The notes beneath the pieces were generated by a model, which saw only the letters and a program-made list of their open reading frames with translations, did not search any database and was not told the origin of the DNA. Positions 299 through 17,934 of a DNA stretch of 32,438 nt are shown in pieces. Within the stretch, counting starts at the first letter, position 1. Each line of letters starts with the position of its first letter. This stretch comes from a virus. Made by a program: the position numbers and the translations under genes. The stretch is from the IMG/VR virus record IMGVR_UViG_3300030419_005498, positions 1 to 32,438 of that record. One strand, given 5' to 3'.

Positions 299-865
299 AT
301 GAAATTTACTCTTTATAAGCCAAACTCTAAAAACACAGGGGCAGCCTTTAGCTTTGATTTAGCTAAAGACAAGAAAGGGAACGCAGTTATGTATGTATCC
401 ATGATCCAACAGCACAGTTGGAATGATCAGACAAAAAGTGCCTCCTTTAAGGAAAATGCTAAAAATCCTGAAAAATCTGGCACCATTAAACTTTCCCCGA
501 CTGAGGCTGGAGAGGTTCTTTCGTCCTTTAAAACAAGAATCCCCTTTGTGGCATTCCACCGCAGAGGAGAAGACACTACCATTATTAGGTTTACTCCGTG
601 GGATAAAAAAAGGAAGGTAATGGAAAAAGAAGGGGAAAAATGGCACACTACCCCAGCCTTTGGCCTTACCGTTACAAGAAACTCATCTCAGACATTTAAA
701 CTGCCGCTAGAAGCTGGAGAAACGGAAGCTCTCTCTGAATTACTTAAAAAGTATATTTTAGATTCTTTTGTTATTAATGATTCTTATAAAGTTCAAGCCC
801 CGAAACAAGAGGCTCGCGAACCCGAAGAAGCCGTTGAACTTGAAGATTTAGATGTCCCATTCTAA
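299..865 (+). CDS. Putative single-stranded DNA-binding protein with SSB-like acidic tail
   Basis: This 188-residue protein is the first gene of the plus-strand operon. It has a beta-rich body (MKFTLYKPNSKNTGAAFSFD, then a FVAFHRR/TTIIRFTPW strand region around residues 82-101). It ends in a charged linker and an acidic tip, EEAVELEDLDVPF. Bacterial and phage SSBs end in an acidic tail with a terminal D-[ILV]-P-F that recruits repair and replication partners; this protein ends in exactly D-V-P-F. The body does not look like the usual OB-fold SSB; a compact PC4/Whirly-like ssDNA-binding fold is possible but unproven. It overlaps the next gene by 14 bases, implying coupled translation, and the same operon ends with a candidate annealing protein, which supports a DNA-replication/recombination role. 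No Shine-Dalgarno sequence precedes the ATG. Confidence 0.6.
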   Translation: MKFTLYKPNSKNTGAAFSFDLAKDKKGNAVMYVSMIQQHSWNDQTKSASFKENAKNPEKSGTIKLSPTEAGEVLSSFKTRIPFVAFHRRGEDTTIIRFTPWDKKRKVMEKEGEKWHTTPAFGLTVTRNSSQTFKLPLEAGETEALSELLKKYILDSFVINDSYKVQAPKQEAREPEEAVELEDLDVPF

Positions 866-2555
866 AAAACTAAAAGTTTTAGTCCACTCTAACCAAAGTA
901 GATTGGTAACGGGTTTCGGCAAAAATGCCAGAAACATACTCCTAGCTCTCCATAAAGATCCAGACATAGAAGTTGTAGAGGCGGGTAATGGAGCTAAGTT
1001 CGGGGCAGATTTATTAACTCCGTGGGAGTCTTATGGAACCCACCCCACTGACCCTAATGTCCTACAGTTTATTCATGGAGATGGAGGGAAAGAAAGAATG
1101 GCTTCTTATGGTTTCTATACCATAGATGAAATTGTTGAAAAATGTAAACCCGATATTTATTTGGGTATTGAAGATATTTGGGCTTTTTCAGAATATCACA
1201 CTAAGCCGTGGTGGAATAAAATAAATAAGGTTTTATGGACCACTCTTGATAGCTTGCCAATTTTAGATCAAGCTCGGCAAATGGAACCACACTGCGACAA
1301 AATGCTCGTCTGGGCTTCTTTCGCAGAAAAGGCCATGAAGGAGCTTGGGCATAAAAATGTCCAGACCATACACGGCGCAGTTGATTATACTAATTTTAAG
1401 CCTCTGAAAAACAGAGAGAAAATTAGAGAGGATTTTGGGCTAAATGATTCTTTCGTAATAGGTTATGTATTTAAAAACCAATTAAGAAAATCTGTCCCTA
1501 ATTTATTACAAGGTTTCAAAATTTTTAAAGAAAAAAATCCAGAAGTAAAAGCGAAGTTGCTCCTTCACACGGACTGGGGAGAGAGGGGGTGGGATATCCC
1601 TCGCTATATTCAGGAAATGAAATTAGATCCCAAGGATATTCTTTCTACTTATGTGTGCCACTCTTGTGATTTTTATTTTATATCCCACTACCAAGGAGAA
1701 GATAAAAACTGTCCTCGGTGCGGTGCTGAAAAAACCTTTAAAACAAAAACAAGCAATAAAGGGGTTGGTGAAAAACAATTAAACGAAATCTATAATTGTA
1801 TGGATGTTTATTGTCATCCCTTTACTAGTGGAGGGCAAGAACTACCGATACAAGAAGCAAAAGCTGCGGGTCTAGTAACTCTTGTTACAGAATACTCCTG
1901 TGGAACGGATTCTTGTTATGAACATCAGGGGGGAATTCCTCTTGCATGGAACGAATATAGAGAACCTCACACACAATTTATCAAAGCATCAACCTGCCCA
2001 CATGACATAGCGAGAAAGTTAAGCCGCGTTTATCATATGGATGAAACTGAGAAATATGATCTTTCGAGAAAGGGAATGAGTTATGTTAAGGACAAATTTT
2101 CTGTTCAAAACATAGCAAATAAACTAAAAAAAACATTATTATCCCTCAAAAAACCAACGATCAAAAACGAAGATAAAACCAATAACAATAAGACCGTAGA
2201 TCTAGGTGATTTACTCGATGATGAAGGGGCTGAAAAAAGAATAGCTGTTGTCCTTCCCGAATCTGCGGGAGATTTGCTAATTCTTAATTCCCTAATGGAA
2301 AACTTAAAGACATTATATCCTGATAAAAATATATATGTTTTTACAAAACCTGAATTCTATCAAATGATAGAAGACAATCCCAATGTTCATAAGATGCTTC
2401 CTTATCAGCAAAATGTAGAAAACTTGTTATTTCTTGAGGGGAGGGGTTCCTACGAAGGCTATTTTGAATTAGCCTTTCTTCCAAACATAGGAACGCAGAG
2501 ACATTTAAACTATCTCCATAATGGTAAAGACAAAACCCAATTTGAACTAAGATGA
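852..2555 (+). CDS. GT4-type glycosyltransferase fused to N-terminal half of a GT9 domain
   Basis: This is a 567-residue protein. Residues 1 to about 435 form a GT-B retaining glycosyltransferase of the GT4 kind: an N-terminal Rossmann start (LKVLVHSNQSRLVTGFGKNA), and a C-terminal donor-binding region with GGQELPIQEAKAAG at 327-340, where the last E (335) matches the second glutamate of the EX7E motif while the first position appears to be G. A zinc-ribbon-like insert sits at 269-290 (C269-x2-C272, C287-x2-C290). After a lysine/asparagine linker, residues about 462-567 (KRIAVVLPESAGDLLILNSL...) match the first Rossmann half of GT9 heptosyltransferases and then stop. The next gene begins with the other half. 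The stop overlaps the next start (ATGA). Transfer of a sugar to a virion, cell-surface or DNA target is inferred; donor and acceptor are unknown. Confidence 0.8.
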   Translation: MSHSKKLKVLVHSNQSRLVTGFGKNARNILLALHKDPDIEVVEAGNGAKFGADLLTPWESYGTHPTDPNVLQFIHGDGGKERMASYGFYTIDEIVEKCKPDIYLGIEDIWAFSEYHTKPWWNKINKVLWTTLDSLPILDQARQMEPHCDKMLVWASFAEKAMKELGHKNVQTIHGAVDYTNFKPLKNREKIREDFGLNDSFVIGYVFKNQLRKSVPNLLQGFKIFKEKNPEVKAKLLLHTDWGERGWDIPRYIQEMKLDPKDILSTYVCHSCDFYFISHYQGEDKNCPRCGAEKTFKTKTSNKGVGEKQLNEIYNCMDVYCHPFTSGGQELPIQEAKAAGLVTLVTEYSCGTDSCYEHQGGIPLAWNEYREPHTQFIKASTCPHDIARKLSRVYHMDETEKYDLSRKGMSYVKDKFSVQNIANKLKKTLLSLKKPTIKNEDKTNNNKTVDLGDLLDDEGAEKRIAVVLPESAGDLLILNSLMENLKTLYPDKNIYVFTKPEFYQMIEDNPNVHKMLPYQQNVENLLFLEGRGSYEGYFELAFLPNIGTQRHLNYLHNGKDKTQFELR

Positions 2556-3676
2556 GCCACCTAGCAGAAGAGTATGCAAAATCTTGCGGTGTTAAGATAG
2601 GTAAACCTGTTTTAAATCCTCATTATTTTCCTGTTTTACATGACAAGTATATCACAATTCACAATGATAAAAAAGTTCAAGCAAAGGAATACGACATGTG
2701 GCCAGATGTTATTGAACTTATTAGACCCTTTCTTGGAGAAATAAAAATAATTCAAATAGGGGCTTTTGGAGAGCCAACTATTTTTGGGGTTGACAGCCAC
2801 ATCCCTACAAACTCCTTAAAACAATCTTCTTACATAATTAAAAACTCTCTAGCACATGTTGGGATTGATAGCGTCCCCGTTCATATTGCCTCGGCATTTG
2901 ATAAGCCAGTAGTTGGTATTTATGCACACACTTATGCCAACACTTGTTGTCCACTATGGAATGATAAATCAAAATTTATAACAATCGAGTCTGATAGAGG
3001 AGGAAATAAGCCCAGCTTTTCTCTGGAAGAACACCCAAAAACAATTAATTTTATTAAACCAGAAAAAATTGCCCAAGCTGTCCTTGATGTTTTAGGAATA
3101 GAAGAAAAAATAAATCACAAAACTATCTTTATCGGAAATAACTACACATCCAAATTTTTAGAAGTAATACCAATATCAGAACCAAGGCTTATACCTAGCC
3201 CCATTGATGTTAGAATGGATATTGCTCATAACGAACAAAATCTTTCTTTTATAGTCAGAGATTATGAAGTGGAGGTCACACTCTCTAAACCTATTGACAA
3301 GAAGTTCCTTGCTTGCGGTAGAATTAAAAAAATAGCTTATAAAACTGACAGATTTGATCCAGAGTTTTGTGATCTAATGAAAGCTCATGCAATCCCCCAC
3401 GCTCTTATATGCACCTCCCCTGAAACCCTTTCTGAAGAAAGAGAAAAGAACTTTGACCTTTTAATTAATTATTTAAATGAGGAAGAGATAATTTTAAATA
3501 ATAAAAAAAGAATCAAGGTCGATGATTTTAGTAAAATCAAAATAAAAAGCGGCAAAACAGTTGTTTCTGGCCAACAAGCCTATGAAACTTTCTTTGATTT
3601 AAACGATAGGAAAAATTTAGATCATTTTTATCTTGATTTAGATTATTTCAGGGTTTACACTGAAGAAGATGAGTAA
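2552..3676 (+). CDS. C-terminal half of GT9-like glycosyltransferase plus unknown domain
   Basis: This is a 374-residue protein starting at an ATGA overlap with the GT4/GT9 gene. Residues 1-185 look like the second half of a GT9 (heptosyltransferase-type) enzyme. MSHLAEEYAKSCGV resembles the inter-domain helix, and HVGIDSVPVHIASAFDKPVV at 102-121 matches the donor-site signature (in the family usually nDSGPmHlAaalg.P). It lacks the first Rossmann half, which is at the end of the preceding protein, so the two may have to associate to form one active site. Residues about 190-374 are an unrecognised domain (IFIGNNYTSKFLEVIP..., ending YFRVYTEEDE). The frame upstream of the ATG is closed by TGA at 2543, and I see no slippery site, so this is a coupled start rather than a frameshift. 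It overlaps the next gene by 8 bases. Confidence 0.7.
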   Translation: MSHLAEEYAKSCGVKIGKPVLNPHYFPVLHDKYITIHNDKKVQAKEYDMWPDVIELIRPFLGEIKIIQIGAFGEPTIFGVDSHIPTNSLKQSSYIIKNSLAHVGIDSVPVHIASAFDKPVVGIYAHTYANTCCPLWNDKSKFITIESDRGGNKPSFSLEEHPKTINFIKPEKIAQAVLDVLGIEEKINHKTIFIGNNYTSKFLEVIPISEPRLIPSPIDVRMDIAHNEQNLSFIVRDYEVEVTLSKPIDKKFLACGRIKKIAYKTDRFDPEFCDLMKAHAIPHALICTSPETLSEEREKNFDLLINYLNEEEIILNNKKRIKVDDFSKIKIKSGKTVVSGQQAYETFFDLNDRKNLDHFYLDLDYFRVYTEEDE

Positions 3677-11022: not shown

Positions 11023-12565
11023 TTTTCAAATAAAGATATTGTATATTCCTGCTAGCCGTCCCTTCTCCGAGATTTAGACTTACACTGTCATTAGTTATAT
11101 GAATTATATCTTCATCGACCAAATCATTAAACTCTGATGTTTTAGCCTCTAGCTCCTCTTTTGCTTTATATATCCCCTCACTTTGACTTACGGTTAAAGT
11201 TCCCTGAACAGTAGCCGAGCCGACTGTTTTTTTGTCACTCACAGTAACAACTTCTTCCAAGTTAGATAAATTTAAAAATTTATTAATTCTGTTTATTTGG
11301 TGGTTTTTTGATAGTGTTTTTTTGAATTTTAATATTCCATCGTCATTATCCTTGTATGAATCATCCGTGGTAAAACCTATATTTTCAGAAACAAAACCCT
11401 GAGATCTTTCAAAAACCGTAGATCTACTTTTTTCATAAATCGGAACAGTTGGATGAAATAATCTCTGCATTCTTTCTAAATTTAATTGCTGACCGCTAAC
11501 CCATGCTTTTTTTGAGTTTGAAAATTTTTCATCATTATTTTTACCATTAGATTTATATGCTATTTGCAGAGTATATTCTGTAAATTTACCCGCTTTTGAT
11601 TCTCCCCCTGAATAAGACTCTGTGGTATCTTGATTCCTTTTGGGATCTGTGCTAAAAGACATCGTGAGCGTAGCGGTTTTCCCGTCTTTAGTTATTCCCT
11701 TCGAAATCTGAAAGGGATTTCCAAACTGTTGCTGCTCAAGGGTTATTATTTCATCAACTATTTCAGCTAAAGCCTTGGTTAGAACAACTTCAGAATCTCT
11801 CTGAAGAGCACTTAAATTTATATTATAGGTTTTATTTAAAAAGCCTTCTTTGGTTATCTCTAGACTTTGCTTTTGATCCCTCCCCACATGCAAGCTATCA
11901 TCTATAAAAGAAGAATTTACTCTTTCGCTTAATTTAACTGAAAGACCCAAAAGGTCATAAGTCTCTGTAATTATCCCCCTATATCCTTTATCTATTTTCC
12001 CATCTTCGGATATTCCGTCTTCTTGGTAACCAAAAGACGGCCTGATAGCGAAATAATAATTAGTTAAAAATGTCTTCGCGTCATTTAAAAACTGATCCCC
12101 TGCTTCTTGATCGTATGTTATAGAAACATCTCTAGTGGAGTTATAATTTCCTCCATCTCTGCTAAAACTATAATTTTCAGAGAAACTTGATAATTTGTGA
12201 GGGTTGGGGATATACTTTGCGAAGTTAGTGGAAGCATAACTATCGAGCCTTTTATATTCTTTTATTTTTATATTGACTGTTTCGCTTCCCACCAAAGGAT
12301 TCGAATCAAAATTGTAAGATTCAATTTGTCCGTTTAAATAAGCGTCAGCCCCAATTCTGGCCACTATATTGGGTCTTCCATAAGCTGTTTTTATAGCTTC
12401 CCTGCCCTCCAAGAGAACAGTATCTCCTTGTTGAAAATTTATATCAGAAATATTAACTACATAATCTCCTACTACAGTATAACCAAAAACTTCTTCTGTA
12501 TCGTGATATTGATATTCAATATCCACCGTTGAGGTTAAGACGTTATATATTAATAAAGAGGCCAT
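11015..12565 (-). CDS. Tail virion protein downstream of tape measure
   Basis: This is a 516-residue protein encoded immediately after the tape measure; its ATG shares one base with the tape-measure stop (TAATG). Position directly after the tape measure usually holds the distal tail protein or another tail-tip component, which is the best guess here. The N-terminus (MASLLIYNVLTSTVDIEYQY) is strand-rich; a segment at about 135-175 and another at about 300-345 resemble parts of the 9403-11022 product, pointing to paralogy. The C-terminus has a helical stretch (KAKEELEAKTSEFNDLVDED). No enzymatic signature is visible. Confidence 0.6.
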   Translation of the reverse strand: MASLLIYNVLTSTVDIEYQYHDTEEVFGYTVVGDYVVNISDINFQQGDTVLLEGREAIKTAYGRPNIVARIGADAYLNGQIESYNFDSNPLVGSETVNIKIKEYKRLDSYASTNFAKYIPNPHKLSSFSENYSFSRDGGNYNSTRDVSITYDQEAGDQFLNDAKTFLTNYYFAIRPSFGYQEDGISEDGKIDKGYRGIITETYDLLGLSVKLSERVNSSFIDDSLHVGRDQKQSLEITKEGFLNKTYNINLSALQRDSEVVLTKALAEIVDEIITLEQQQFGNPFQISKGITKDGKTATLTMSFSTDPKRNQDTTESYSGGESKAGKFTEYTLQIAYKSNGKNNDEKFSNSKKAWVSGQQLNLERMQRLFHPTVPIYEKSRSTVFERSQGFVSENIGFTTDDSYKDNDDGILKFKKTLSKNHQINRINKFLNLSNLEEVVTVSDKKTVGSATVQGTLTVSQSEGIYKAKEELEAKTSEFNDLVDEDIIHITNDSVSLNLGEGTASRNIQYLYLKNG

Positions 12566-15500
12566 TACTTAGGAACATTAGGATTGGGAATAAAATCAGC
12601 ACCCCCGATTCTTTTGCCTACTTCTGAAGGTATGGGCTGACTGAGGGGACTATCGCTACTCCCCAGCGTTGCAACATAGGCTTCTATTCGTTCAACTGCC
12701 TTCGATAAAGTTTGCATCGAGCCAATGGCCTGTTGGTTTAGGGTTGTAGTTTGACCAATAAGCTCGGCTGTCGCATTTGTTTGAGCGGTAAATGTCTCAG
12801 TAAAATTACCAAAGCCCTCTATACTTGTCCCTGCTTTCTTTAATTTTTCCGCGAATTCTTTAATTGCTGCGGCCTGACCTTCGCCCCCTTCTGTATCAGC
12901 TTCAATGCCAGTTAGTTTTTCGAAATCTGCAATCATCTTATCATACAGTTGAGTTAGAGCTTTCTTTCTATCCGATAATTGATTTTGAGCTTTAACATCT
13001 TCGTCGTGCTGTTTAGCTAAGAAGGTATAACCAAGTTCTTGTGCGCCCTGAGCTTGGGTTGGATCTCCGAAATCTGTATCCAGTTTTCTGGCTCTTTCGG
13101 GATCTATAAGATCATGCATCGAGAGGTCACGCAGTGCTTCAGACAATGTTTGTTGAGTAATCCCAGCCATATGAGCGACCATCTCGCCTTTTTCTCCGAA
13201 TTTACCAGTATCTAATTCAGACCAAGCCTGCATCAAATCGCCTGCATCAACATTCTCTGGATTGGCTATAAACGCTTTGATCATCTGCCCGACATCCATA
13301 GCATCATCAGTAACATCCTCAAACCTTAAGCCCTCGCCCTTCATTCTAGCGTCGATTAAGTTACCCGCCCTTTGTATTATGCTGGCGCTTATTTCATCTA
13401 GCTGTTTGGCGACTTGTAGCTGAGCCTGTGAAACATCGTTTATAGACCCCGCAAGGAACATAGCGGCATCTTTAATCTTATCTTTTAGCCTATCCCCCGC
13501 TTCTGCTATATCGGTCTCAAGTTGAGGGACTGTTCTGTGGTCTACCTCGACTTCAGCAAATTTATCATAAGGACTCTCTCCTTCTTTCAAGGTGACTCGC
13601 TTAATTCCTTTTTCAGCCATCTCCCGAGCAAGCGTGGCTTCTTTTATAATTGCTTGTTCCCCTTGAATACCTCTCATGTGAGCTTCAGCCCCTATAAAGG
13701 TTCCTAGCTCTTGCTGGAGAGGCAAACCCTTCAATGTCTTCATCATTTCAAGCCCCATATTTGCCTCGTCCATATCACGGGCAGCCTGTCGAGTAGTCTG
13801 TTGCGCTTGGGCTAAGGGGGTATTAAAAGTCTCCTTTGCTAACTCCCTCTGATGATGAAGAAGCGCCTTAACAGTGAAAGTCACCCTTTCCTGAAGCTTT
13901 TCCTCCAGTTGTTTTTGTTTGTATGTTCTCTGGTTCAGGGTAAGCATGGTTTTCTCCAAAGCTGCTCTCTTTTTAGCTATAGCCTCCTGCTTTGGGTCTT
14001 TCGTTTCTTTGCCCCAAGACATGACGTATGAAAGCATAGGGGTTACGTTTTCTTGCCACCAGTTTATACCCACTCCTGCTTCGGCATCCCGAAGCTCGGC
14101 TTTTTGTTGAACTGCTTTCTCTTGTAACTCTCTCGTTTTTTGTTTGCCCTCTTCAGTAGCCTCTCTCCGCAACATCTTTTTTCTTTCCTCTGGCTTAGCT
14201 TGCATCCACTCCATCATCCCGATGCCTTTTTCTATTCTGTCCACCCCCTCATTTAAAGATGCATTAAAATCCTTCTCGTTCATTCCGAGCCTCATTGTTT
14301 GAGTCGCTCTACCCTCTGCTTCTGCCCACTCAGCGGCTGCATCTCTCCCTCCAAGTTTTTTATCGAGCCAATCTCCCCCAAAAGCTCCTACTGCGGCCCC
14401 GATCAAAGCTCCGACGATAGGAATTGGAATAGCTGCCTGTCCTATCATTGCACCCGCTATTGCTCCTCCTCCCTGAAATGCTGCTGATCGCATTTTATTA
14501 GCCCGTTCAGCAGAAGTCGCACTTTTATCCATCGCAGCCGTTAATACAGCAGCGGCAGAAATTGCTGCGCCTATACCCGCAGTTCCTCTTCCCATGCTCC
14601 TTAGCCCTACTCTTCTATCCGCAAATTTTCTGGCTTGAGCTTGAGGCATTGCACTCCTCCTGCCCAGCCCCATGAATCGACTAGCATTCCCAGCCATTGC
14701 CTGACGAGTAATCCTATCACTTGCTGCTGATTTTGCTGCCGCCCCAAACCCTAGTCTTTTTCCTATCCCCCCTCCAAATCTGCCTAAGCCGCCGCCTGTA
14801 AAAGTATTTAAAGCAGAAAGAACCATCATGGATGATATTACAGTTTGAATAGTTTCAGATAGCTGCATGAGGGACTGAGTAGATTTCTCCACTTCGCTCG
14901 TCTTCCTCTTTTCAGCATCCATCAAATTCATCCTTTGACTAGCCTCCATCTCCATTGTCTTGAGCTTATTTATCTCCTCTTCCTCTTCAGCTTTTCTAGC
15001 AGTAACCGCTTTTTCAGCCGAAGCCTGAAACATCCCCATTACCATCTGAACTCCAAACATGACACTCATTAGAGCCGTGCTTTTATCACCCACTCCCTCT
15101 AACCCGTCTGCTGCTTGTTTTGAGTATTTCCCTAAAGCAAGAACTTGCTTGTTCACAGCGTTTTGTCCAACCTGCATTTTTCCACCCTTCATCCCCGCTC
15201 CAAAATAATTAGGGATAAATCCAGAGGCAAACATGCCTATTCCTTGGCGCTCTCTCTTAACAGCATCCTGTAAGCCATTAGGCTCATCTCTTAAATTCGT
15301 AACAGCAACTGGCGAACCTGCATCATCTTTATGAACCCTCATCATGGACATGGGGACACCTCCCGCACCAGCATAGTTAGGTATATAGCCTCTAGCTTTA
15401 CTTTTTCTGCCTAAAGCAGTCAACATACTAGTTGTGCTGTTTTTATATTTTTCGTTGGCTATCTTTTTAATAAAACTGGTTCTATTGGGAGGACTATCTG

Positions 15501-17934
15501 TAGCCTTAAAATCACCGATTGTAGTGCTTTTAGCTTTTCCTTCTCCGTAAAATAATTCTCTAACTTTTTCTGTTACAGGTCTAACGTCAAAATCCCCCCC
15601 CTCTTTTTTGATCAAGTTACTCATCCGCAAGCCAGTTACAATTGCCGCCTCAAAAGCGGCTCCGACTGCTGCATGAATAGCCCCCTTACCCCCTCCTTGG
15701 GTCATTAAGGCATTTTTGATTTCAGAGGTTGAAGCTGCGTTTCTTTTCGTGACGGGAGTTAGCGTATTAGAAAACTGCCTTGATCTTTTCGCTATATCTT
15801 TAATGACGTTATCTTTTAACCTGTCATCTTCAGGCTCTCCCGCAGCATCCACACCGTGTGGAAGTTGTGGTCCTCTTACTTTGAATCCACCTTGCAAATC
15901 GTAAGGAATTTTATGCTTACCCTTCATGAAAAAACCTTGATGGGGTTTAACAGAGGCTTTATGGTTTAATATAGGAACAAACATTCCCTTACCCGCCCCC
16001 GTTAAAGGCAGTCTTTTCATGTTCGCCTTCTCCGCAGCCCGCTTATCCATTTCAGCTAATTTTTTCCGAGCAGCCTCTTTTTGTTTAGCTGTTTTATGAA
16101 ACCTGCTTCCTACAGGTTGCTTACTATTTATAATTGATAGTAAATTTTGCCTTGAATAATTGGGAACAAACCCTCTAGCATAATGTGGGATTATTGCAGA
16201 GTCTGGACCTCCCGCGAAGTTTCTAACTTCGGTTTCATGGTTGTTTATAATAGCCCTTCTCCCGCCTATAGTGCCTTCGCTTAATCTGGCTTTAACATCA
16301 GCGGGTGCTCCTAAAGCCCTAGCTTCAGCTTCTTCTGCTCTGAAGCCCATACTAAATCTTCCCTTCCCCTTTCTGCCACTAAAGCCTGTTGGCCCAAATC
16401 CCCCAACACCCCTCATCGCGGCGGCAGTAGCTAAGCCACGCATAATCGAAGCTTGTTGACTCAGTAAAGCATTCTCTTGTCTTATTGCATCTATAACTAA
16501 TTGTTCTTTCTGAGCCTGAGTTATAGTAGAGGAGTTAATTTGATTACGGAGATTTTCATCTCTCTGTAAAAGCCCCACTATGCCAGCCTCTATACTCCTT
16601 ACCCTGTCTGCCTGAGTCCCCATTTTAAGGAGAGAACTCAAACCTTCTTTTGCAAATTTTGCGACTAGACCAAATATTTTAATAAACGCCCCTGTAAACA
16701 TAACCACCGCTGGCCCGCTGAGAAATGTGCCTATAGCCTTAAAAAAGCCCTTAATAAAAACATTACCTTTTTCTGGGTCTAGCGCCTTATCTAGAAACCC
16801 AACAAACGTGTCTGCAACTCCTATTAAGTTTTCAAGTAGAGGTCCGAATGTTAAAGACCCCACCTTTTCTGCCAAACTAGTTAAGCCTTGCACTAATGCA
16901 TTTATTTGATGAGCCATCCCCTCACTGAGCATGGCATTTTTTTCAAAAGCTTCGTTTACAGCCCCCACAGAAGCTTTAGTAGCGTTTGCGAAAATAGATG
17001 ATTCACTTCCAATATCTTTTAACGCAGCACTCACCACGTTTATCTGGAAAACTCCACCAGCAAGTTCTTTGATTTTAGCTGCAACGGTTGGATCACCAAC
17101 TGTTTCTAAAGCATCAGACAACGCTTTGAGTTTCTGGACTCCGCTTTGAGTTGCATCAATCTGGACACCAAGCTCTTGTAATTTACCAATTGTAGTTCCT
17201 CGCGCAAGACGAGTAAAAATTGATTTAAAAGCGTTACCGATAACAGCCCCTCCCCTTGCGGTTCTTTGCTCAACCGCAGTCACTAAACCTAGAAGCTGGT
17301 CAAAACTAACCCCAGCATCTTCCGCAGTAGAACCCGCTCGCGAAAAGGCTTCCGCAAGATCCTCAGTAGACACTGCAAAGGCCGTGTCCACTGCGACCAT
17401 TTTGTTGACGATCTCATTATGCTTTAACCCAGCAGATGAGAAACCATTGATCGCAGCCGTAAGAGCCTTTACGGATTTTTCTGCGTCCATTCCTGAAATC
17501 CTAGTTAAAACCAAAGCTGACTTTAACCTGCTAGCCGTCTCTTCCGCGCTTAAACCTTGGCGAGCTAATTCCGCAGCACCTTCTGCGACAGTATTAAAGG
17601 ATTGTCCTGTCTCCTTGGCTACGTTGAATATGGAATTTCTAAACCTATTAAAAGTTACTTCTGTGGCCTGAAAAATCGAATTAATCTCAAGCAACCTTTT
17701 TTCAACTTCTATTGTAGTCGAAACTAATTTTTTAAATGATTGTGTTACTCCGTTTAGAACAACAGTTGTCGCTCCAAATGCAAAAACACGGGCTGTAGAA
17801 GCGTCCAGAGATTTCTGGAATTCTGACGCTTGCCCCGTAATTCTCCCTAAAGCCTGTTGAACCTGCCTACTGGCTTGGTTAAGACTCTGAGGATTTAGGG
17901 TTACATTTAGGGAAGCATTTAGACTTGTTGCCAT
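12565..17934 (-). CDS. Tail tape measure protein
   Basis: This 1789-residue protein is the longest in the window, and its length should set the tail length. Residues about 1-300 match the TP901-type tape-measure core: a long helical start (SLNQASRQVQQALGRITGQA), AAELARQGLSAEETASRLKS, SRAGSTAEDAGVSFDQLLGL, then RGGAVIGNAFKSIFTRLARG. Hydrophobic segments follow near 395-425 and around 1150 (GAIAGAMIGQAAIPIPIVGA), suggesting membrane insertion during DNA entry. Three G-[FY]-[IV]-P-N-Y motifs (586-593, 847-854, 903-910) and a shorter one at the very C-terminus punctuate the middle and end. A nuclease-like stretch lies at about 745-830. Charged coiled-coil-like regions follow (about 1180-1350). 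It is preceded by two probable chaperone genes, and a GTGTAA box lies 10 bases before its ATG. Confidence 0.9.
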   Translation of the reverse strand: MATSLNASLNVTLNPQSLNQASRQVQQALGRITGQASEFQKSLDASTARVFAFGATTVVLNGVTQSFKKLVSTTIEVEKRLLEINSIFQATEVTFNRFRNSIFNVAKETGQSFNTVAEGAAELARQGLSAEETASRLKSALVLTRISGMDAEKSVKALTAAINGFSSAGLKHNEIVNKMVAVDTAFAVSTEDLAEAFSRAGSTAEDAGVSFDQLLGLVTAVEQRTARGGAVIGNAFKSIFTRLARGTTIGKLQELGVQIDATQSGVQKLKALSDALETVGDPTVAAKIKELAGGVFQINVVSAALKDIGSESSIFANATKASVGAVNEAFEKNAMLSEGMAHQINALVQGLTSLAEKVGSLTFGPLLENLIGVADTFVGFLDKALDPEKGNVFIKGFFKAIGTFLSGPAVVMFTGAFIKIFGLVAKFAKEGLSSLLKMGTQADRVRSIEAGIVGLLQRDENLRNQINSSTITQAQKEQLVIDAIRQENALLSQQASIMRGLATAAAMRGVGGFGPTGFSGRKGKGRFSMGFRAEEAEARALGAPADVKARLSEGTIGGRRAIINNHETEVRNFAGGPDSAIIPHYARGFVPNYSRQNLLSIINSKQPVGSRFHKTAKQKEAARKKLAEMDKRAAEKANMKRLPLTGAGKGMFVPILNHKASVKPHQGFFMKGKHKIPYDLQGGFKVRGPQLPHGVDAAGEPEDDRLKDNVIKDIAKRSRQFSNTLTPVTKRNAASTSEIKNALMTQGGGKGAIHAAVGAAFEAAIVTGLRMSNLIKKEGGDFDVRPVTEKVRELFYGEGKAKSTTIGDFKATDSPPNRTSFIKKIANEKYKNSTTSMLTALGRKSKARGYIPNYAGAGGVPMSMMRVHKDDAGSPVAVTNLRDEPNGLQDAVKRERQGIGMFASGFIPNYFGAGMKGGKMQVGQNAVNKQVLALGKYSKQAADGLEGVGDKSTALMSVMFGVQMVMGMFQASAEKAVTARKAEEEEEINKLKTMEMEASQRMNLMDAEKRKTSEVEKSTQSLMQLSETIQTVISSMMVLSALNTFTGGGLGRFGGGIGKRLGFGAAAKSAASDRITRQAMAGNASRFMGLGRRSAMPQAQARKFADRRVGLRSMGRGTAGIGAAISAAAVLTAAMDKSATSAERANKMRSAAFQGGGAIAGAMIGQAAIPIPIVGALIGAAVGAFGGDWLDKKLGGRDAAAEWAEAEGRATQTMRLGMNEKDFNASLNEGVDRIEKGIGMMEWMQAKPEERKKMLRREATEEGKQKTRELQEKAVQQKAELRDAEAGVGINWWQENVTPMLSYVMSWGKETKDPKQEAIAKKRAALEKTMLTLNQRTYKQKQLEEKLQERVTFTVKALLHHQRELAKETFNTPLAQAQQTTRQAARDMDEANMGLEMMKTLKGLPLQQELGTFIGAEAHMRGIQGEQAIIKEATLAREMAEKGIKRVTLKEGESPYDKFAEVEVDHRTVPQLETDIAEAGDRLKDKIKDAAMFLAGSINDVSQAQLQVAKQLDEISASIIQRAGNLIDARMKGEGLRFEDVTDDAMDVGQMIKAFIANPENVDAGDLMQAWSELDTGKFGEKGEMVAHMAGITQQTLSEALRDLSMHDLIDPERARKLDTDFGDPTQAQGAQELGYTFLAKQHDEDVKAQNQLSDRKKALTQLYDKMIADFEKLTGIEADTEGGEGQAAAIKEFAEKLKKAGTSIEGFGNFTETFTAQTNATAELIGQTTTLNQQAIGSMQTLSKAVERIEAYVATLGSSDSPLSQPIPSEVGKRIGGADFIPNPNVPK
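12568..12600 (-). other. C-terminal DFIPNPN motif of the tape measure
   Basis: The last residues of the tape measure read GADFIPNPNVPK. The F-I-P-N core matches the three internal G-[FY]-[IV]-P-N-Y motifs, so the protein appears to end on a degenerate fourth copy. Confidence 0.4.
15205..15228 (-). repeat. Tape-measure motif copy 3 (ASGFIPNY)
   Basis: Residues 903-910 of the tape measure read ASGFIPNY, followed by FGAG. It matches the copies at 847-854 and 586-593. Similar G-F-[IV]-P-N-[FY] repeats are, from memory, common in tape measures of marine phages; their function is unknown to me. Confidence 0.7.
15373..15396 (-). repeat. Tape-measure motif copy 2 (ARGYIPNY)
   Basis: Residues 847-854 of the tape measure read ARGYIPNY followed by AGAGG. 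It closes the nuclease-like segment on its C-terminal side, about 37 residues after the candidate D-x-K. Confidence 0.7.
15440..15700 (-). other. Candidate PD-(D/E)xK nuclease-like segment within tape measure
   Basis: Residues about 745-832 of the tape measure contain a glycine-rich helix start (GKGAIHAAVGAAFEAAIVTG, E762), then GGDFDV (D781, D783), then TIGDFKAT (D808-F-K810). A helix glutamate, an aspartate on a strand and a D-x-K on the next strand, about 20 to 25 residues apart, is the layout of PD-(D/E)xK nucleases. The segment sits between two G-[FY]-[IV]-P-N-Y motifs, as if it were a discrete inserted module. This is a motif match only; activity or even fold is not established. Confidence 0.35.
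16156..16179 (-). repeat. Tape-measure motif copy 1 (ARGFVPNY)
   Basis: Residues 586-593 of the tape measure read ARGFVPNY, preceded by a short hydrophobic/polar lead (DSAIIPHY). It is the first of three well-preserved copies. Confidence 0.7.

Follow-up and report, generated by a model that had tools for sequence, protein, structure and literature searches.

The stretch of DNA analyzed here, referred to as the window, is 32,438 nucleotides long (IMG/VR record IMGVR_UViG_3300030419_005498). Its minus strand encodes a protein designated as a tape measure protein based on its matches to Pfam PhageMin_Tail (1.3e-25) and several PHROG tape-measure profiles. The great length of the gene and the hydrophobic segments of its product agree with this designation. 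An internal module is found between two G[FY][IV]PNY motifs, and the features are as follows.

12565..17934, minus strand: tape measure protein gene, 1789 aa (open reading frame, Pfam PF10145 at 1.3e-25, PHROG tape-measure families)
17056..17619, minus strand: PhageMin_Tail domain, the constant N-terminal part of the tape measure, aa 106-293 (Pfam)
16156..16173, minus strand: 5' junction motif GFVPNY, aa 588-593; in relatives with a swapped module, DNA homology stops at its codons
15370..16179, minus strand: module as modelled, aa 586-855, net charge +28 in 270 aa
15865..16017, minus strand: N-terminal beta part of the module with conserved P654, aa 640-690 (AlphaFold secondary structure, conservation)
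15448..15696, minus strand: putative catalytic core with the E762 helix, D783, the D808-F-K810 strand and the K824 helix, aa 747-829 (conservation and AlphaFold)
15649..15651, minus strand: E762 codon (56 E and 2 D among 58 modules)
15586..15588, minus strand: D783 codon (58/58)
15505..15513, minus strand: codons of D808-F809-K810, the (D/E)xK motif (58-row alignment)
15463..15465, minus strand: K824 codon (50 K, 8 Q)
15373..15390, minus strand: 3' junction motif GYIPNY, aa 849-854 (sequence and DNA homology of relatives)
15223..15339, minus strand: short constant element RVHKD..VAVTNLRDEP.. after the cassette, aa 866-904 (sequence, relatives)
15205..15222, minus strand: third motif GFIPNY, aa 905-910 (sequence)
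14362..14469, minus strand: hydrophobic glycine-zipper segment, aa 1156-1191 (PF13488 at E 6.7e-4, below the cut-off; hydropathy; GxxxG)

Two genes with glycosyltransferase matches are located at the left end of the window (852-3676, plus strand; PHROG glycosyltransferase, 1.9e-21; Pfam family 9 heptosyltransferase, 1.6e-7).

The module is flanked by hydrophobic segments on both sides, of which the later one is the glycine zipper. Judging from its residues, aa 1156-1191 is a candidate for the membrane-crossing part of the tape measure. A glycine zipper common to some tape measures is needed by a type VI secretion system (T6SS) DNase effector for crossing into target cells (PMC10240207).

The initial annotation had proposed a nuclease-like module, at about residues 745-832 of the tape measure, with E762, D781/D783 and D808-F-K810 arranged as in PD-(D/E)xK nucleases and G[FY][IV]PNY motifs on both sides. 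Translation places all of these residues as proposed, and the motifs are present at aa 588-593 and 849-854, with another at aa 905-910. The core was correctly located, but the real module is larger, about aa 595-848, and adds the conserved N-terminal beta part. The cassette is internal, at aa ~594-848 of 1789, and it occupies the corresponding place in relatives. In the comparison with relatives, the net charge per 100 aa is +6.5 in the module and +1.4 outside it, and the module is the more basic part of the protein in 66 of 68 relatives. Elements like aa 866-904 (NP.GLAVTNTRDEP.G-like) are seen beside the junction motifs in the relatives L041 and L028, sometimes in several copies.

A profile covering the N-terminal part of this tape measure retrieved 67 further loci from IMG/VR. 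This part shows 40-98% identity among relatives. An iterated module HMM recognized the module in 49 tape measures of the IMG/VR set, including the one described here. The remaining tape measures that reach the site contain E...D...(D/E)xK by eye (e.g., SVFESG/GIEAK and NIQELG/TGEVK), where L030 was judged from its twin L029. Profile-profile comparison linked the L026/L045 group to the main module family (90% probability, E 1.4e-6), and linked the PFDFE group, which is partly caught by the module HMM, more weakly (32%, E 4.9e-4). Scanning with a peptide pattern taken from the module only revealed 48 loci, and all 46 new ones encode the module. In 44 of these 46, it resides in a tape measure whose N-terminal half shares 39-79% identity with that of the present protein; the other two are truncated ORFs that do not include the N-terminal half. 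No tape measure of the clade that extends to the site lacks such a module, which is therefore a constant companion of the clade, not a one-off. All relatives are metagenomic. None was found in two scans of bacterial genome contigs, and tblastn, with five versions of the module and one additional cargo as queries, found no match in 50,697 isolate phage records.

In the PD-(D/E)xK superfamily, the core fold is alpha-beta-beta-beta-alpha-beta, with E carried by a helix, D preceding a short strand, and (D/E)xK on the strand after it. A conserved K/Q on the helix following (D/E)xK is an accessory feature of many of its families. The loose pattern E-x15-30-D-x10-40-[DE]xK starts 13 times in this tape measure, compared with a mean of 16 in 200 shuffled sequences. 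The pattern is no rarer than chance, so its observation in a single sequence proves nothing and its significance comes only through relatives. The relative L002 is about 78% identical over the first 460 residues and about 30% in the module, which keeps E, D and DFK in register. An alignment of 58 non-redundant homologous modules has a mean column identity of 24%, and its five least variable columns are G758, D783, K810, G751 and E762. E762 is replaced by D in two modules (56 E), the acidic residue D783 is invariant in 58 of 58, and K810 is present in 57. At D808, 50 D and 7 E are observed, with one misaligned row. Accordingly, (D/E)xK is found in 57 rows, and the 58th (L045) has IEAK displaced by one column. 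The column of K824 contains 50 K and 8 Q, a K/Q on the helix after (D/E)xK, and P654 in the N-terminal beta part is also strongly conserved. The proposal had been made to depend on conservation of the acidic and lysine residues in homologues, and they are conserved, with the exception of D781, which is D in just 40 of 58 modules and was ruled out as a catalytic residue. The alignment therefore shows a conserved acid of the first helix, D and (D/E)xK in the order of the superfamily, kept in relatives down to about 15-20% identity. These residues support the assignment of a PD-(D/E)xK nuclease-type catalytic signature to the module.

The AlphaFold2 model of the module (270 aa, 33 sequences) has a pLDDT of 84 and a pTM of 0.73, and that of the relative L091 (217 aa, 58 sequences) has 86.5 and 0.77. 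The two models share the same elements: beta structure in the N-terminal part, long helices, the helix of E, a short strand at D, a small helix, the strand of DxK and a final helix. In the comparison with PD-(D/E)xK folds suggested in the initial annotation, the order of secondary structure elements is compatible with the core fold of the superfamily, but no solved structure was matched by either model with Foldseek or VIA-align. VIA-align rows with Z of 2-3.4, many of them G-protein alpha chains, were taken as background. The model of this module had no Foldseek match in BFVD either, and the module matches no known family in Pfam, PHROGs, NCBIfam or PADLOC. Scattered sub-threshold family matches, mostly limited to one member each (e.g., Phage_TAC_15, E 0.014), were taken as chance, as were MazF over the beta part (E 0.13), the best result of a profile search against PDB sequences, and uL23 over the D-helix-DxK stretch (E 0.29) in the same search. 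As neither model matches a solved structure, the membership in the PD-(D/E)xK superfamily rests on the sequence signature. The module resembles the superfamily in having E, D, (D/E)xK and K/Q in the right order on predicted secondary structure compatible with it. It differs in that no solved member was detectably similar in sequence or structure, that a helix separates the D strand from the DxK strand, and that extra strands come from the N-terminal part.

A new finding is that the tape measure carries the module as an exchangeable cassette. The N-terminal halves of the backbones of L010 and L116 are 98% identical and their modules 19% identical, whereas L079 and L078 share 39% in the backbone and 54% in the module. 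Module subtypes only 15-20% identical to each other are found on backbones 80-98% identical; the identities of module and backbone are decoupled. The DNA of L010 and L116 is 90.6% identical up to aa 596, just past the motif GGFVPNY (590-595). Beyond this position it is unmatched, except for a 36-bp island of 94% identity at the 3' motif, and after the cassette the two are again 87% identical. Among the closest motif-bearing pairs (backbone identity of 83% or more; overlapping pairs from at least three independent groups), the 5' edge of DNA homology is 2 residues or less from the motif end in 17 of 23, and homology resumes near the 3' motif. Older swaps have blurred edges. On the backbone tree, no fewer than 20 changes are required to account for the ten module subtypes, where 9 would be the minimum. 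The end of DNA homology at the GFxPN codons in recent swaps indicates that the motifs already recognized in the initial annotation are the cassette junctions. An intein was ruled out; the protein contains no cysteine, and the 3' end of the module reads SKARGYIPNYAG, with no HN. A second class of breakpoints is seen about 70-80 aa upstream of the cassette, in tape measures around aa 500-590 (e.g., L010 vs L009). The hinge around aa 500-590 has two versions, GTKDDVPAMLTSGEFVM and GTIGGRRFIMNN, which appear to be exchanged too.

Further GFxPN-bounded segments are carried by some relatives. The tape measure of L041 is 2464 aa long, and those of L041 and L033 include extra segments of this kind. 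A P-loop module (GPSGAGKST / GPAGSGKST) is located at aa 1259-1447 in L041 and at aa 593-754 in L033. Between GFxPN motifs at aa 1027-1182 of L041, there is a second, unrelated PD...ExK candidate (IFEALL..GPDI..VREAK; IFEALL..GPDITSGSFAVREAK), for which no match was found in Pfam or isolate phages. More GFxPN-bounded segments are present in L041 (aa 1448-1805), L106 (aa 622-782) and L077 (aa 873-995).

When the whole contigs of L010 and L116 (58.8 and 79.7 kb) are compared, homology extends without a break for about 9 kb on the upstream side of the swapped cassette and about 7.5 kb on the downstream side. In this pair, the one compared in full, neither an adjacent immunity gene nor a co-swapped neighbor was found. 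Other unmatched stretches of L010/L116 lie at G001 15.8-24.4 kb, 25.9-27.9 kb and 33.3-34.1 kb, and these could hold a distant partner of the cassette. Neither Phage_integrase nor N6_N4_Mtase was matched in 12 large related contigs (78-203 kb, which may be incomplete). The phages look virulent from the lack of a Phage_integrase match in these contigs. With no adjacent immunity gene in L010/L116 and no N6/N4 methylase in the 12 relatives, self-protection is unexplained.

It is somewhat likely that the module is an exchangeable, diversifying nuclease cassette of the PD-(D/E)xK type, delivered with the virion; its fold, catalysis, substrate, delivery and the sparing of the phage's own DNA are what we infer. 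The constant parts of the tape measure would build the tail and, at infection, be ejected before the phage DNA and assist its passage through the inner membrane. The lambda tape measure was placed at an inner-membrane entry complex by proximity labelling (PMC13190303). The nuclease would travel along with the constant parts, be either retained at the entry site or released, and cut nucleic acid other than the phage's own in a metal-dependent manner. Its targets may be the host chromosome, plasmids, prophages or the DNA of a rival phage. Recombination at the GFxPN-coding junctions would swap the whole cassette with the active site kept, and specificity would diversify in this way. A kept active site in a diversifying remainder is the pattern of toxins and restriction enzymes in conflict. 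The conserved signature, the fixed position, the basic charge and the exchange edges at the motifs speak for a delivered, diversifying nuclease, and the attack on competing DNA suggested in the initial annotation is consistent with the diversity of the cassettes. The lack of a structural or family match and of an immunity gene or methylase counts against a delivered nuclease, as does the need for a folded domain of about 25 kDa to fit the tail tube.

An entry nuclease is unlikely, yet it is kept as an alternative because the universal presence of the module would fit an entry function too. Such an enzyme would carry out an obligatory trimming or nicking of the incoming genome, or would clear periplasmic or host DNA at the injection site. 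A core function would be expected to place the module in every clade tape measure reaching the site, as is observed, and a DNA-entry nuclease of the EndA kind is the model proposed for Tme, a related effector of a contractile injection system (PMC11126660). A housekeeping step, however, needs no wholesale exchange of the kind seen here, with modules 15-20% identical on backbones 80-98% identical.

It is improbable that the E/D/DxK residues belong to another enzyme fold, unrecognized and not a nuclease. Two confident models that find no PDB match would agree with it, but the order, the spacing, the D/E swap at the first (D/E)xK position and the K/Q on the next helix fit PD-(D/E)xK. We know of no other superfamily that fits these features in combination.

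A selfish, homing-like activity has a low probability as well. The nuclease would then cut tape-measure genes containing another cassette during co-infection, and repair through the GFxPN-coding flanks would copy the cassette in. The coincidence of the cassette edges with short conserved coding motifs, the 36-bp, 94% identical island amid unmatched DNA in L010/L116, and the many exchanges are all compatible with homing. Yet toxin domains are shuffled without homing too, and with no cysteine and no intein the product must stay within an essential virion protein. Finally, an enzyme relic, serving as a nucleic-acid-binding or structural module for contacts of tail and DNA, would suit the basic charge and the lack of a structural match to active nucleases, but is equally doubtful, as retained catalytic residues with just E/D, D/E and K/Q exchanges at 24% mean identity are unexpected for a relic.

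The preferred reading, a delivered and exchangeable nuclease cassette, can be compared with several known systems. No nuclease module in a phage tape measure is described in the open-licence literature searched. The available part of the report on Tme, from Streptomyces davawensis, describes an effector with remote tape-measure homology and a proven EndA-type endonuclease domain (PMC11126660). Like the protein reported here, Tme is related to tape measures, carries an endonuclease domain and is delivered by a tail-like machine; unlike it, the nuclease is C-terminal, belongs to the EndA (DRGH / H-N-N) type and is not part of a phage virion, and the same part of the report contains no cassette exchange (PMC11126660). 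MuF polymorphic toxins are also virion proteins in which a constant part is joined to variable toxin domains, often nucleases, and are thought to be delivered with phage DNA, but they are associated with the head or portal, have a C-terminal toxin and are limited to temperate phages (PMC5576092). Here, the cassette is internal to the tape measure, and the 12 large contigs had no Phage_integrase match. As in polymorphic toxins in general, a constant delivery part is combined with exchangeable, putatively toxic domains; the cassette is not a C-terminal toxin domain, and L010/L116, a single pair, revealed no adjacent immunity gene. The tape measure of mycobacteriophage TM4 has an enzymatic module inside, but this is a peptidoglycan hydrolase motif, a cell-wall enzyme and not a nuclease, according to the accessible text (PMC1796659). 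Polyvalent proteins of phages and conjugative elements are multidomain proteins that are injected and carry effector domains, nucleases included, and the accessible text describes no tape-measure cassette among them (PMC5512222).

It is possible, though we put it forward tentatively, that the tape measure is a cargo bay, in which the GFxPN codons act as junctions for exchanged effector cassettes. These would always include a PD-(D/E)xK-type nuclease, and in some cases also the P-loop module and the second PD-ExK candidate (L041, L033). A large clade of phages, uncultured and apparently virulent, would in this case possess an injected, recombining effector system without adjacent immunity genes.

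If the delivered nuclease is confirmed, a widespread group of uncultured phages would use an essential tail protein also to carry a diversifying nuclease, and a new route for the injection of phage effectors would be added. The module would represent a domain family missing from current libraries, and the tape-measure stretches between GFxPN junctions would be a place to look for more effectors. It would also pose the problem of how the phage's own DNA is spared, and would allow one to test directly whether tape measures enter the cytoplasm.
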